A DNA stretch of 64,000 bases. Source: Gaiella occulta (GTDB taxonomy: Bacteria > Actinomycetota > Thermoleophilia > Gaiellales > Gaiellaceae). The stretch is taken from the NCBI RefSeq assembly GCF_003351045.1, contig NZ_QQZY01000004.1:124001-188000 (forward strand). Direction: 5' to 3'. Made by a program: the position numbers and the translations under genes. Shown one piece after another: positions 22,190 to 43,621 of this stretch (position 1 is the stretch's first letter; every line of letters starts with the position of its first letter). The notes below the pieces were generated by a model, which was given only the letters and a program-made list of their open reading frames with translations, ran no database searches and was not told the origin of the DNA.

Positions 22190-23193
22190 CAGCTCACTCT
22201 GATCCGCGGGTTGATGATCCCGTAGGAGATGTCGACGAGCAGGTTCACGAGCACGAACACGAGCGCCGTGAAGAGGATTCCGCCCTGGATGACCGGGTAG
22301 TCGCGGTTGAAGATCGCGTTTGCCAGCCACGAGCCCATGCCCGGCAGCGCGAAGACCGTCTCCGTCAGCACCGCGCCGGAGAGCAGGAGCCCGGTCTGCA
22401 GCCCGATGATCGTCGACACCGGCAGCATCGCGTTGCGAAACACGTGGCGCGCGTCGACCGTCCACGGGCCCATGCCTTTCGCCCGCGCCGTGCGCACGTA
22501 GTCCTCGTTCTGCACGTCGAGCACCGCGGCACGGGTGATGCGCGCGATGATCGCGAGCGGGATCGAGCCGAGCGCCACCGCGGGGAGGATGAGGTGCTTG
22601 ACCGCGTCCCATGCCGACGTCCAGCGGCCGGTGACGATCCCGTCGAGGACGTAGAAGCTGGTCGGGTGCGGCGTGTCGAGGAGGACGTCCTGGCGGCCGA
22701 CGCTCGGCAACCAGCCGAACTTGACGGAGAAGACGTACTTCAGGAGCAGCGCGAGGAAGAAGATCGGCGTCGAGACGCCGACCAGGGAGACGACGAGGCT
22801 GCCGTGGTCGAAGACCGTGCCGTACTTCTTCGCCGCGAGGAAGCCGAGCGGGATCCCGAGCGAGATCGCGAACAGCATCGCCGCGAGCGTGAGCTCGACG
22901 GTCGCCGGGAAGCGCTCCCTGAGCTCCGTCGTCACCGGTCGCCTCGACACGATGCTCGTCCCGAGCTCCCCGTGGACGGTCTTGTCGACGTAGTTCCAGT
23001 ACTGCACGTAGAGGGGACGGTCGAGGCCGTACTGGTGCCTGATCTGGGCGATCGCCGCCGGTGTCGCCCGCTCGCCGAGCAGCGCCTGCGCCGGGCTTCC
23101 CGGCAGCGCGCGGATCCAGAGGAAGATGAGGAGCGAGAGCCCTATCAGGATCGGCACGACGAGCAGGAGCCGACGGACGACGAACCGGAGCAT
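22189..23193 (-). CDS. dppB: Peptide/nickel-type ABC transporter permease (DppB-like)
   Basis: 334 residues. The N-terminus MLRFVVRRLLLVVPILIGLS is the standard family start, followed by the periplasmic segment LDRPLYVQYWNYV and six membrane helices. The EAA loop reads YVRTARAKGMGPWTVDARHVFRNA. Its ATG lies in the loop of a 20-bp perfect hairpin (23168-23217), which also covers its leader and first codons. Translation of this gene is therefore likely to be limited relative to the binding-protein gene upstream. Confidence 0.9.
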   Translation of the reverse strand: MLRFVVRRLLLVVPILIGLSLLIFLWIRALPGSPAQALLGERATPAAIAQIRHQYGLDRPLYVQYWNYVDKTVHGELGTSIVSRRPVTTELRERFPATVELTLAAMLFAISLGIPLGFLAAKKYGTVFDHGSLVVSLVGVSTPIFFLALLLKYVFSVKFGWLPSVGRQDVLLDTPHPTSFYVLDGIVTGRWTSAWDAVKHLILPAVALGSIPLAIIARITRAAVLDVQNEDYVRTARAKGMGPWTVDARHVFRNAMLPVSTIIGLQTGLLLSGAVLTETVFALPGMGSWLANAIFNRDYPVIQGGILFTALVFVLVNLLVDISYGIINPRIRVS

Positions 23194-23217
23194 CTAGCGG
23201 TTCGTCGTCCGTCGGCT
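23168..23217 (-). promoter_or_regulatory. 20-bp perfect hairpin holding the dppB start codon
   Basis: Arms 23168-23187 and 23198-23217 are exactly complementary over 20 bp; each contains CGACGGACGACGAACCG or its complement. The 10-nt loop (23188-23197) contains the dppB ATG. It lies between the binding-protein gene and the permease genes, where such structures commonly protect upstream mRNA and reduce downstream expression. No T-run follows, so it is not a standard terminator. Confidence 0.7.
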
Positions 23218-31472: not shown

Positions 31473-32117
31473 TCAGCGGCGCGCGGCGGCGAGCCGCTCG
31501 AGCGCCGCCCGCCGCGACGAGACGCCGAGCTTGCGCAGCAGGCTCTTCACGTGCGAGCGCACGGTGTGCTCGGAGATGTAGAGGCGGCTTGCGATCTCGT
31601 CGGTGCCGAAGTGCTCGTCGAGGAGAAGCAGAACCTCGACCTCGCGTGCCGACAGCTTCTGCGCGATGTCGTCCGGCACGCCGCCGAGCCTGCCTCCCTC
31701 GCGCACCCGGTCGAGCAGCCTGCGCGCGATCGATCCCGACAGCGCCGCCTCTCCGCCCGCGACGCCGCGCAGGAACCACGCGATGCGCTTCGGCGGCTCG
31801 CTCTTGAGCAGGTAGCCGGCCGCCCCCGCGCGGATCGCCTCGAGCAGGTTCTCCTCGGTGCCCGAGGCGGTGAGAACGACGACCTCGCTGTCCGGGGACG
31901 CCTGGCGAATCGGCGGGAGCGCCGCGAGCCCGTCCATGCCGGGCATCGTCAGGTCGAGCAGGACGATCGCCGGCTGCAGCTCGCCGGCCAGCGCGATCGC
32001 CTCGGCGCCGTCGGCCGCCTGGCCGACGACCTCGAAGCCGTGCTGCTGCAGCAGCGAGGCAAGGGCCTCGCGCGTCAACGGATGGTCGTCGACCACCAGG
32101 ATGCGCTCTGCGCTCAT
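31473..32117 (-). CDS. NarL/FixJ-type response regulator
   Basis: 214 residues from ATG 32117. An N-terminal receiver domain (ILVVDDHPLTREAL, phospho-acceptor Asp55 in IVLLDLTMPGMDG, VVVLTAS, YLLKSE) is joined to a C-terminal LuxR helix-turn-helix (LSAREVEVLLLLDEHFGTDE, SEHTVRSHVKSLLRKLGV). It is phosphorylated by a histidine kinase, very probably the one encoded divergently 43 bp away. The short gap holds a 14-bp inverted repeat that includes the ribosome sites of both genes. Confidence 0.9.
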   Translation of the reverse strand: MSAERILVVDDHPLTREALASLLQQHGFEVVGQAADGAEAIALAGELQPAIVLLDLTMPGMDGLAALPPIRQASPDSEVVVLTASGTEENLLEAIRAGAAGYLLKSEPPKRIAWFLRGVAGGEAALSGSIARRLLDRVREGGRLGGVPDDIAQKLSAREVEVLLLLDEHFGTDEIASRLYISEHTVRSHVKSLLRKLGVSSRRAALERLAAARR

Positions 32118-32121
32118 CACA

Positions 32122-32157
32122 CCCCTCATCGGCAGGAGTGCCGCTGCCGATGAGGGG
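32122..32157. promoter_or_regulatory. 14-bp inverted repeat between the divergent regulator and kinase genes
   Basis: CCCCTCATCGGCAG at 32122-32135 and its exact complement CTGCCGATGAGGGG at 32144-32157, with an 8-nt centre. Each arm carries the GAGGGG that serves as the ribosome site for the gene on that side (starts at 32117 and 32161). The gap is too short for two promoters, so these would have to lie within the opposite genes. Confidence 0.6.
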
Positions 32158-32160
32158 AAC

Positions 32161-33537
32161 GTGCACCCCGGGCGCGTCGACACCTATCGGTCGTGGCTGA
32201 TCGGCGAGCTCGTGCTCGTCGGCCTGCTCGGTCTCGCCACGCTGCTGCTCGCGCTCACCGGCCGCCTCGAGGGGTACGCGCTCCCGCACGGCCGCATCGC
32301 CCTCGACACGGCCGTCGCGATCGTGGCCTCGATCGTCGCGGTCCTCGCGGCGATCCGCTTCCTCGTCGAGGGGCGCGGCATGGACATCCTGCTCGCAGCC
32401 GGGTTCCTCGCCACGGGGCTCGGGTCGTTCGGATTCGGGGTCGCACCGGTGCTCGACGGCAGCAGTCTCGGAGCCGGGGAAGCATGGGCGCGCATCGGCG
32501 CCGACCTCTTCGGCGCCGCGCTGATCGCCCTGGCCCCGTTCGTCACGCGCCGTACGTCGAACCGCCCGCGGGTGCTCCTCGCCGGCCTGCTGGTCGTGCT
32601 CGCCTCGCTCGCCGGGATATGGGTGGACACGCGCATCCTCGGTCTCGACCTCGGCGTCACGGGCGCGGCGGACGACCATGCGCCCGCGGTGATCGTGGCG
32701 TTCGCGCTGCTCGCGCTGCTCGCGGTCGCCGCCGCCGTCGGGTTCGGCCTTCGCTTCCGTCGCTACGGGCGCGACCTCGACCGCTGGCTGGCGCTCGCGC
32801 TGACGCTCGTCGTGTTCGCTGACCTCCACTTCGTGCTGCAGCCGACGCGGTCGAGCGAGTACGTGTTGCAGGGCGACTTCCTGCGCCTGCTGTCGTTCGC
32901 CGTGCTCCTCGTCGGGGTGTGGCGCGCGATCAGCCAGGCCGAGTTCGGCAGGGCCGTCGCGGAGGAGCGGGCCCGCGTCGCCCGGGAGATCCACGACGGC
33001 CTCGCGCAGTACCTGTTCGCGATCTCGACGCAGGTGAGCATGCTCGAAGGCGGAACCGCCCTCGACGACCTCCTGCCGCGACTGAAGCACGCCACCGACG
33101 CCGCGCAGCAGGAGGCACGGTTCGCGGTGCTGGCGCTGTCGTCGGCGTCGGGGACGGCGCCGTTCGACGCCGCCCTCAAGCGCTACGTCGACGTGCTCTG
33201 CGCCGACGGCGCCGTCGACGTGGAGGTCGACATCGACGCGGCGGTGAGGCTTGCGCCGGACGAGCAGATCGAGGTCTTCCGCATCGTGCAGGAGGGGCTT
33301 GCGAACGTGCGCCGACACGCCGGCGCCAGCCACGTCGAGGTGTGTCTGCGGCAGCGGGCCGGCCGGCGTGTGGTCACGATCGACGACGACGGCCACGGCT
33401 TCGACGGCACGGGCACGGCGGCGGGCCAGGGTCTCGAGAACATGCGCGCGCGCGCCGCGTCGATCCAGGGCGCGTTCGCGCTGCGATCGGCGCCCGGCCG
33501 CGGCACCTCGATCGAAGTCGTGCTGCGGCCGCTGTAG
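32161..33537 (+). CDS. Sensor histidine kinase (HisKA_3/NarX-LiaS type)
   Basis: 458 residues from a GTG at 32161 preceded by GAGGGG. About seven or eight membrane helices occupy residues 10-255 (for example WLIGELVLVGLLGLATLLL), with no large extracellular domain, so the signal is probably sensed in the membrane. The dimerisation/phosphoacceptor segment is RARVAREIHDGLAQYLFAIS (His278). The ATPase domain has FRIVQEGLANVRRHAGA, VTIDDDGHGFDG and GQGLENMRARA. It phosphorylates the response regulator encoded divergently. Confidence 0.88.
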   Translation: MHPGRVDTYRSWLIGELVLVGLLGLATLLLALTGRLEGYALPHGRIALDTAVAIVASIVAVLAAIRFLVEGRGMDILLAAGFLATGLGSFGFGVAPVLDGSSLGAGEAWARIGADLFGAALIALAPFVTRRTSNRPRVLLAGLLVVLASLAGIWVDTRILGLDLGVTGAADDHAPAVIVAFALLALLAVAAAVGFGLRFRRYGRDLDRWLALALTLVVFADLHFVLQPTRSSEYVLQGDFLRLLSFAVLLVGVWRAISQAEFGRAVAEERARVAREIHDGLAQYLFAISTQVSMLEGGTALDDLLPRLKHATDAAQQEARFAVLALSSASGTAPFDAALKRYVDVLCADGAVDVEVDIDAAVRLAPDEQIEVFRIVQEGLANVRRHAGASHVEVCLRQRAGRRVVTIDDDGHGFDGTGTAAGQGLENMRARAASIQGAFALRSAPGRGTSIEVVLRPL

Positions 33538-42763: not shown

Positions 42764-43621
42764 ATGATCCAGTCCGCCGTTGCCGGGCTCGTGTCGGGCG
42801 GTGCCTACGCGGCGCTCGGCGTCTGCATCGTGCTCGTCTACCGGATGGTCGGCGTGCTCAACTTCGCGCAGGCTGCAATCGGTGCATTCGGCGCGTACGC
42901 GACGTTCGTTCTCTACGAGAACGGCGTCGCGTACGCGCCCGCCGTCCTGCTCGGAGCAGCCACCGGCGGTGCGGTCGCCGCTCTGCTCGGCTACGTGATG
43001 TCGACCTGGTTCTCGGAATCGGGGCCGGAAGTCCGCTCCACCGTCACCATCGCGGCACTGATCACCCTCTTCGCCGTCGCGTTCCGCGCCTTCGGCGACT
43101 CGCCCCGCTCCGTCCCCGACCCGTTCTCCGGCGCCGCCTTCGAGGTCGGCGGTGTCGCGATCGGCGCCACCGGCGCCGTGGCGATCGCGGGTGCGGGAGC
43201 GATCGCGCTCGCCGTCGGGCTCGGCCTCCGCCACACCGTAACGGGCGTCCGCCTGCGGGCGCTCAGCGAACGACCGACCACGGCCGAGCTGGTCGGGATC
43301 CGGGCCAGACGCCTGTCGATCGGCGTCTGGGCGTTCGCAGGGGCCGTCTCCGCCCTCGCCGTGCTCGCGATCGCACCGTCGCGCACGTCCGACTTCCTCG
43401 GCCTCGGCATGCTCGTCGTCCCCGCGCTCGCAGCCGCTCTCATCGGTCTCCTCCGTAGCCTCGAACTCGCGTTTCTCGGTGGGCTCGCGATCGGGCTGAT
43501 CGAGGGCGTCGCCGCGAACTTCCCCTCCGTCAGCCCCTACCGGCAGGCGCTGCCGTTCTTCGTCATCGTCACCGTGCTCCTCTGGACGGAGCGCTCGGAG
43601 GTGTGGGATGCTCGTCGCTAG
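42764..43621 (+). CDS. livH: Branched-chain-type ABC transporter permease (LivH-like)
   Basis: 285 residues. Hydrophobic throughout with about eight helices, and the family N-terminus AVAGLVSGGAYAALGVCIVL and VGVLNFAQAAIGAFGAYATF. A cytoplasmic loop carries LRALSERPTTAELVGIRARR, which contacts the ATPases. It forms the channel with the LivM domain of the next gene, whose start lies 14 bp inside its 3' end. Confidence 0.88.
   Translation: MIQSAVAGLVSGGAYAALGVCIVLVYRMVGVLNFAQAAIGAFGAYATFVLYENGVAYAPAVLLGAATGGAVAALLGYVMSTWFSESGPEVRSTVTIAALITLFAVAFRAFGDSPRSVPDPFSGAAFEVGGVAIGATGAVAIAGAGAIALAVGLGLRHTVTGVRLRALSERPTTAELVGIRARRLSIGVWAFAGAVSALAVLAIAPSRTSDFLGLGMLVVPALAAALIGLLRSLELAFLGGLAIGLIEGVAANFPSVSPYRQALPFFVIVTVLLWTERSEVWDARR

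Follow-up and report, generated by a model that had tools for sequence, protein, structure and literature searches.

A divergent gene pair and its inverted repeat

The window, i.e. the whole 64-kb stretch of DNA that was analysed, belongs to a genome of 3.03 Mb in 34 contigs. According to the list of open reading frames, it contains a response regulator gene on the minus strand with an ATG at 32117 and a sensor histidine kinase gene on the plus strand with a GTG at 32161 (Table 1). The Pfam assignments of both proteins bear out the description of the earlier note, which had seen here two divergent two-component genes 43 bp apart. In the domain make-up of both proteins (NarL/FixJ and HisKA_3) the pair resembles NarXL, LiaSR and MadRS. 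The top NCBIfam model for the response regulator is NarL with a score under its cut-off, and among the matches listed none of the two-component equivalog cut-offs of NCBIfam is reached by the pair. The N-terminal half of the kinase is hydrophobic by eye and gives a weak MASE3 match under the cut-off. The named relatives possessing the gene pair are metagenome-assembled genomes of Thermoleophilia/Actinomycetota, one of which is labelled Gaiellaceae.

Between the two starts lies an inverted repeat, which is indeed perfect over 14 bp, as had been noticed before. The arms CCCCTCATCGGCAG (32122-32135) and CTGCCGATGAGGGG (32144-32157) are 100% complementary and, together with the 8-nt spacer GAGTGCCG, occupy 36 of the 43 intergenic bp. 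Three perfect inverted repeats with arms of at least 14 bp and a loop of at most 20 nt were detected in the window, compared to a mean of 0.1 in 30 shuffled versions of the 64 kb, and of these three the kinase/regulator repeat is placed between two divergent starts. When up to three mismatches are allowed, the repeat has 11 matches in the window with 14.1 expected. The half-site CCGATGAGGGG occurs twice in the own genome, both times at the pair, and its reversed control likewise occurs twice. Perfect inverted repeats were also observed at 23168-23217 (20-bp arms, 10-nt loop), between two minus-strand ORFs of 555 and 334 aa and extending over the predicted start of the latter, and at 42890-42939 (15-bp arms, 20-nt loop), within a predicted plus-strand ORF.

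The regulator start at ATG 32117 is a prediction, since another in-frame ATG is located inside the regulator-side arm. In addition, there is an in-frame GTG 5 nt past the putative -10 element of the regulator.

Table 1. Genes, inverted repeat and putative promoter elements at the kinase/regulator locus (positions of the window)
Feature	Position	Strand	Basis and remarks
Response regulator, NarL/FixJ family (LuxR-type HTH), 214 aa	31473..32117	-	ORF and translation; Pfam Response_reg and GerE
Sensor histidine kinase, 458 aa, GTG start at 32161	32161..33537	+	Pfam HisKA_3 and HATPase_c
Perfect inverted repeat, 14-8-14	32122..32157	both	The inner 11-8-11 (32125-32154) forms the conserved core
Putative kinase -35, TCAT	32126..32129	+	Pattern match; within the regulator -10; TTAT or TCAT here in 43/45 loci
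Putative kinase -10, GCCGATGA	32146..32153	+	7 nt before GTG 32161
Putative regulator -35, TCAT	32150..32153	-	Within the kinase -10; only T-N-N-T in relatives
Putative regulator -10, GCCGATGA	32126..32133	-	8 nt before ATG 32117; GCCGATAA in 37/45 loci

Promoter-like elements and their conservation

The flagellar/WhiG sigma class of promoters has the consensus GCCGATAA at -10 and TAAA at -35 (PMC8325347). In the window, the kinase direction can be read as TCAT-N16-GCCGATGA-N7-GTG and the regulator direction as TCAT-N16-GCCGATGA-N8-ATG, so that an element close to the -10 consensus of the WhiG/sigma28 class is found on both strands. The earlier note had seen no space for two ordinary promoters between the genes, but the repeat itself can contain both, with each -35 embedded in the opposite -10. 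The mirrored sets of -35 and -10 elements have bases in common, which is, by sequence, the symmetry of a bidirectional promoter.

For the analysis of conservation, the kinase was searched in 101 relatives, to which another 42 genomes of the family were added, and the regulator in the genome collection (best 80 loci). From 78 loci, four without a kinase start were dropped (L028, L029, L044, L261), and merging of identical ones resulted in 54 distinct segments. Exclusion of the paralogues L031 and L032, which are same-strand pairs without the repeat, left 52 distinct orthologous loci. The core CTTATCGGCAG-N8-CTGCCGANNAG, with a few substitutions, is present in 45 of them. Its eight spacer bases are variable, and the sequence outside the 11-8-11 core is unconserved.

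Within the 45 core loci, the kinase -10 is relaxed: it conforms to GCCGANNA throughout and has the form GCCGACAA in 24 loci. The kinase -35 is TTAT in 39 and TCAT in four loci, at a distance of 16 bp, and that of the regulator is T-N-N-T; compared to the consensus TAAA at 14-16 bp, both are off consensus. From GCCGANNA to the first in-frame kinase start there are 7 nt (29/45) or 8 nt (16/45). The regulator start could be placed in 44 of the 45 loci; the commonest distance from its own GCCGATAA is 7 nt (18 loci), and the 26 others fall within 5-14 nt. A -10 element that is followed by the start codon at such a distance is the geometry expected of a leaderless start, and the fixed distance on the kinase side supports the leaderless messages that had been considered for this locus. 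A further proposal, mirrored ribosome sites in the arms, stands only in part: GAGGGG is mirrored beside both starts as a putative ribosome site, but the outer bases vary in relatives, and an SD-like 4-mer is present in the short leader in only 13/45 (kinase) and 9/45 (regulator) loci.

All 11 core positions pair in only two of the 45 loci, the window's own locus and L005, and pairing at position 4 of the arm is limited to ten. The perfect symmetry of the repeat in the window is therefore partly a local feature.

Several loci deviate from the common arrangement. Five loci of genus g20 (L025, L255, L259, L260, L262) have lost the regulator-side arm; the GCCGATA on the kinase side is kept with TCAT exactly 16 nt upstream, and the kinase start is located 8 or 9 nt downstream of it. 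In this genus the regulator's start codon, read as its complement, is included in the TCAT, as though this codon also served as the opposite -35. The arms of L016 overlap (CTATCGGCCGATAG), with TCAT still found at 16. These one-arm and overlapping-arm variants fit promoters better than a dimer operator. L246 counts against strict interlocking, since its two arms are kept at a distance of 28 bp and TCGA stands at the place of the kinase -35. L248 has CTAT at this place.

Similar sites at pilus genes and the sigma factors

Sites of the same kind were also detected outside the pair. The pattern TNAW-N15-TGCCGATR has 46 matches in the seven genomes of the genus (six of the seven have at least one), compared to none for the reversed pattern. 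Seven of the sites belong to the own genome, two at the pair and five at type IV pilus genes. The latter precede the genes for an MshEN/T2SSE ATPase, two PilT-like ATPases, a prepilin peptidase and a 181-residue protein of the pilus cluster without a Pfam match; three of the five genes are covered by T2SSE matches. These five sites have the form N16 followed by GCCGAT[AG]N and are located 7-8 nt (four sites) or 10 nt (one site) before the start. They emerged once the eighth base of the -10 was allowed to vary, together with some matches within genes or far from starts; with this base fixed as A, no convincing site was found at the pilus loci of the own genome.

Elsewhere in the genus, such sites lie before PilT-, PilB/MshEN-, PilC- and prepilin peptidase-like genes as well as before the gene of a GGDEF protein, and some look like chance matches. 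A Pfam search with seven downstream proteins from the genus returned T2SSE plus MshEN, T2SSE (twice), prepilin peptidase, T2SSF and GGDEF, with one protein unmatched. Those of the 46 matches that lie in the 30 loci read correspond to 28 distinct sites outside the pair. A gene start follows 7-10 nt downstream in 17 of these, and not in the other 11, some of which are chance-like. The -35 of the 28 sites, with TNAW imposed by the search, is TCAA (14), TAAA (8), TCAT (3), TGAA (2) or TGAT (1).

The -35 was also checked in 22 sites from the family and the order that had been picked solely by TGCCGATAAG-N6/7-RTG and lie outside the gene pair (G147:C193 was left out). Here TNA[AGT] occurs with a spacer of 16 in nine sites, of 15 in two and of 11, 12 and 17 in one each; spacers of 13, 14 and 18-20 did not occur. 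Since orthologous MshEN sites from a single genus account for four of the nine, approximately six independent sites have a spacer of 16. In 103 genomes of the family, the strict pattern TAAA-N14/16-GCCGATAA has 27 matches versus seven for the reversed pattern, with no match in the own genome, and TGCCGAYAAG-N6/7-RTG has 107 versus 30, the TGCCGACAAG form being among the matches outside the pair. The -10 alone is mostly noise, since GCCGATRA-N7/8-RTG matches 124 times in the genus and its reversed form 94 times. Looser promoter patterns also match inside genes.

A protein without a Pfam match closely follows a WhiG-type promoter in the own genome (L324 1536-2081, C8). Compared by eye, similar proteins are encoded downstream of a WhiG-type promoter in L330, L312 (plus strand), L144, L197 and L221. 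They have roughly 170-240 residues and, again by eye, an N-terminal hydrophobic stretch, occur in several genera and are candidates for a new kind of pilus-associated protein. In G005, a genome of the same genus that is 86% complete, there is neither a TNAW-N15-TGCCGATR match nor a FliA/WhiG-family match above the cut-off; a joint loss of sigma factor and regulon is possible.

A cognate sigma factor is encoded in the own genome, as one gene scores above the cut-off of the NCBIfam WhiG model (363 bits, cut-off 343). The closest PDB entry to its product is 6pfj, and 7lq4, which is labelled WhiG, was also matched. A second gene of the FliA/WhiG family (243 bits) is located in a flagellar-looking cluster. 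This cluster (L209 2907-10633) contains, by resemblance, genes for flagellin, CsrA, FliW, FlgL and FlgG. Its flagellin-like gene is preceded by TAAA-N15-GCCGACAA with a leader, and the two flagellar promoters that were read both have the N15 spacer and a leader. At the level of the family, a WhiG match is present in 50 of 57 genomes with the kinase and in 33 of 46 without it, so that its presence is not tied to the pair, in a comparison that combines two search methods and many incomplete genomes and in which the WhiG matches may include FliA. The kinase fragments of G041 and G051 were scored as present in this count and the paralogue of G148 was not. A search of the window and of four 20-kb stretches for an RsiG motif gave no match.

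Interpretation and relation to known systems

Taken together, the repeat very probably represents two back-to-back promoters of the sigma28 class (WhiG/FliA). Each -35 would coincide with bases of the opposite -10 read from the complementary strand, and a single block of 30 bp would serve both promoters. Under this arrangement the 8-bp spacer cannot drift freely, since moving the arms alters both spacings. RNA polymerase with a WhiG-type sigma factor would start at or beside the start codons, which would result in leaderless messages with starts approximately 44 bp apart. Presumably only one polymerase fits at a time, so that the two genes would be under the same sigma factor and in competition with each other. 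Since promoters of this class are also found in the genus before genes for type IV pili and for a diguanylate cyclase, the pair would be part of the pilus regulon. Against promoters speak the off-consensus -35 elements, the relaxed kinase -10, the strict pattern missing from the own genome, the scatter of the regulator starts, the arrangement in L246 and the CTAT of L248, the chance-like sites, the matches of looser patterns inside genes and the presence of WhiG irrespective of the pair.

It is rather likely that these promoters are read by WhiG and not by FliA. The flagellar paralogue FliA, or a different sigma factor of the class, might also serve the same leaderless back-to-back promoters, as the second FliA/WhiG-family gene and the TAAA-N15-GCCGACAA element of the flagellin-like gene would allow. 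However, the own-genome pilus sites differ from the flagellar ones in having an N16 spacer and only 7-10 nt to the start instead of N15 and a leader, and a WhiG-type gene accompanies the kinase in most genomes of the family, although FliA may be counted among these matches. We therefore regard a reading by FliA or another such factor as unlikely.

A different explanation takes the repeat as the operator of the response regulator, which would bind as a dimer to both arms and control both genes, its own included, with promoters elsewhere or overlapping. NarL/FixJ-type regulators commonly bind inverted repeats, and such a site would be in keeping with the position between regulator gene and partner and with the twofold symmetric, rigidly spaced core of 45 of the 52 loci. 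Moreover, the full palindrome in the TTATCGGC form has 27 matches in 121 genomes, every one of them beside the kinase; the matches of the TCATCGGC form include the pair in G000, G001, G006, G038 and G051. However, pilus genes are preceded by single arms that have a -35-like element but lack a partner arm, and in G002 the TNAW-N15-TGCCGATR pattern has eight matches, several of them before pilus genes, yet the kinase search gave no match. The variants that persist with a single arm, with overlapping arms or with a long insert argue against an operator as well, and so does the nearly constant spacing from the start codon, which is a promoter feature. An operator instead of promoters is thus quite improbable, but the regulator may bind here as an added layer. 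Finally, the translation switch envisaged by the earlier note, a hairpin in both messages, would profit from the perfect 14-bp pairing of the arms in the window and from their position beside both starts, but it can be rejected as extremely improbable, since arm pairing is seldom complete in relatives and a message beginning at the start codon would not contain the hairpin at all.

The promoter reading can be compared to the Rubrobacter system, for which a connection between WhiG and type IV pili has been described (Schumacher et al. 2021; PMC8325347). For Rubrobacter radiotolerans, 12 predicted promoters of the class with mapped starts are given there; the pilus cluster contains three of them, and five precede DGC/PDE genes. 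Both systems thus have the TAAA/GCCGATAA class before genes of type IV pili and c-di-GMP turnover, and Rubrobacter belongs to a neighbouring class of the Actinomycetota. Unlike here, the main text of that paper does not use the terms two-component, histidine kinase or leaderless, response regulator appears only in the title of a reference, and the section considered here describes no back-to-back arrangement.

In E. coli and Salmonella, bidirectional promoters are described as pseudo-symmetric DNA on which polymerase binds either way, including cases between divergent genes linked in function (PMC12825309, PMC10268837). As presented in these sources, they have one common -10, starts 7-25 bp apart and belong to sigma70. 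The locus described here differs by two separate putative -10 elements, each of which would supply the opposite -35, and by a probable dependence on a sigma factor of the flagellar/WhiG clade. The predicted starts, approximately 44 bp apart according to the codons at 32117 and 32161, lie outside the 7-25 bp of the bidirectional definition (PMC10268837). A literature search found neither this arrangement nor a WhiG regulon described in Gaiellales, which is no proof of absence. The repeat would accordingly be of a known kind, the bidirectional promoter, and is a likely member of the WhiG regulon; new would be the mutual use of -10 and -35, the sigma factor of the WhiG clade and the leaderless genes.

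More tentatively, the repeat might be an obligately interlocked bidirectional promoter, which works in one direction at a time and thereby sets the ratio of kinase to regulator without an operator, under a pilus switch in which WhiG would be gated by c-di-GMP through its RsiG partner.

If the promoter reading is true, the repeat would be a very compact coupling of two divergent genes, with a fixed spacing kept in most of the orthologous loci seen within one bacterial family, and the palindrome would consist of two promoters sharing their elements and not, or not only, of an operator. It would also caution against taking any perfect inverted repeat between a regulator and its partner for the regulator's binding site. 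Moreover, the WhiG pilus regulon of Rubrobacter would extend to Gaiellaceae-like Thermoleophilia, which are known mainly from metagenomes. The palindrome would tie the signalling pair to the pilus programme and add it as a candidate regulator of surface behaviour in these bacteria.
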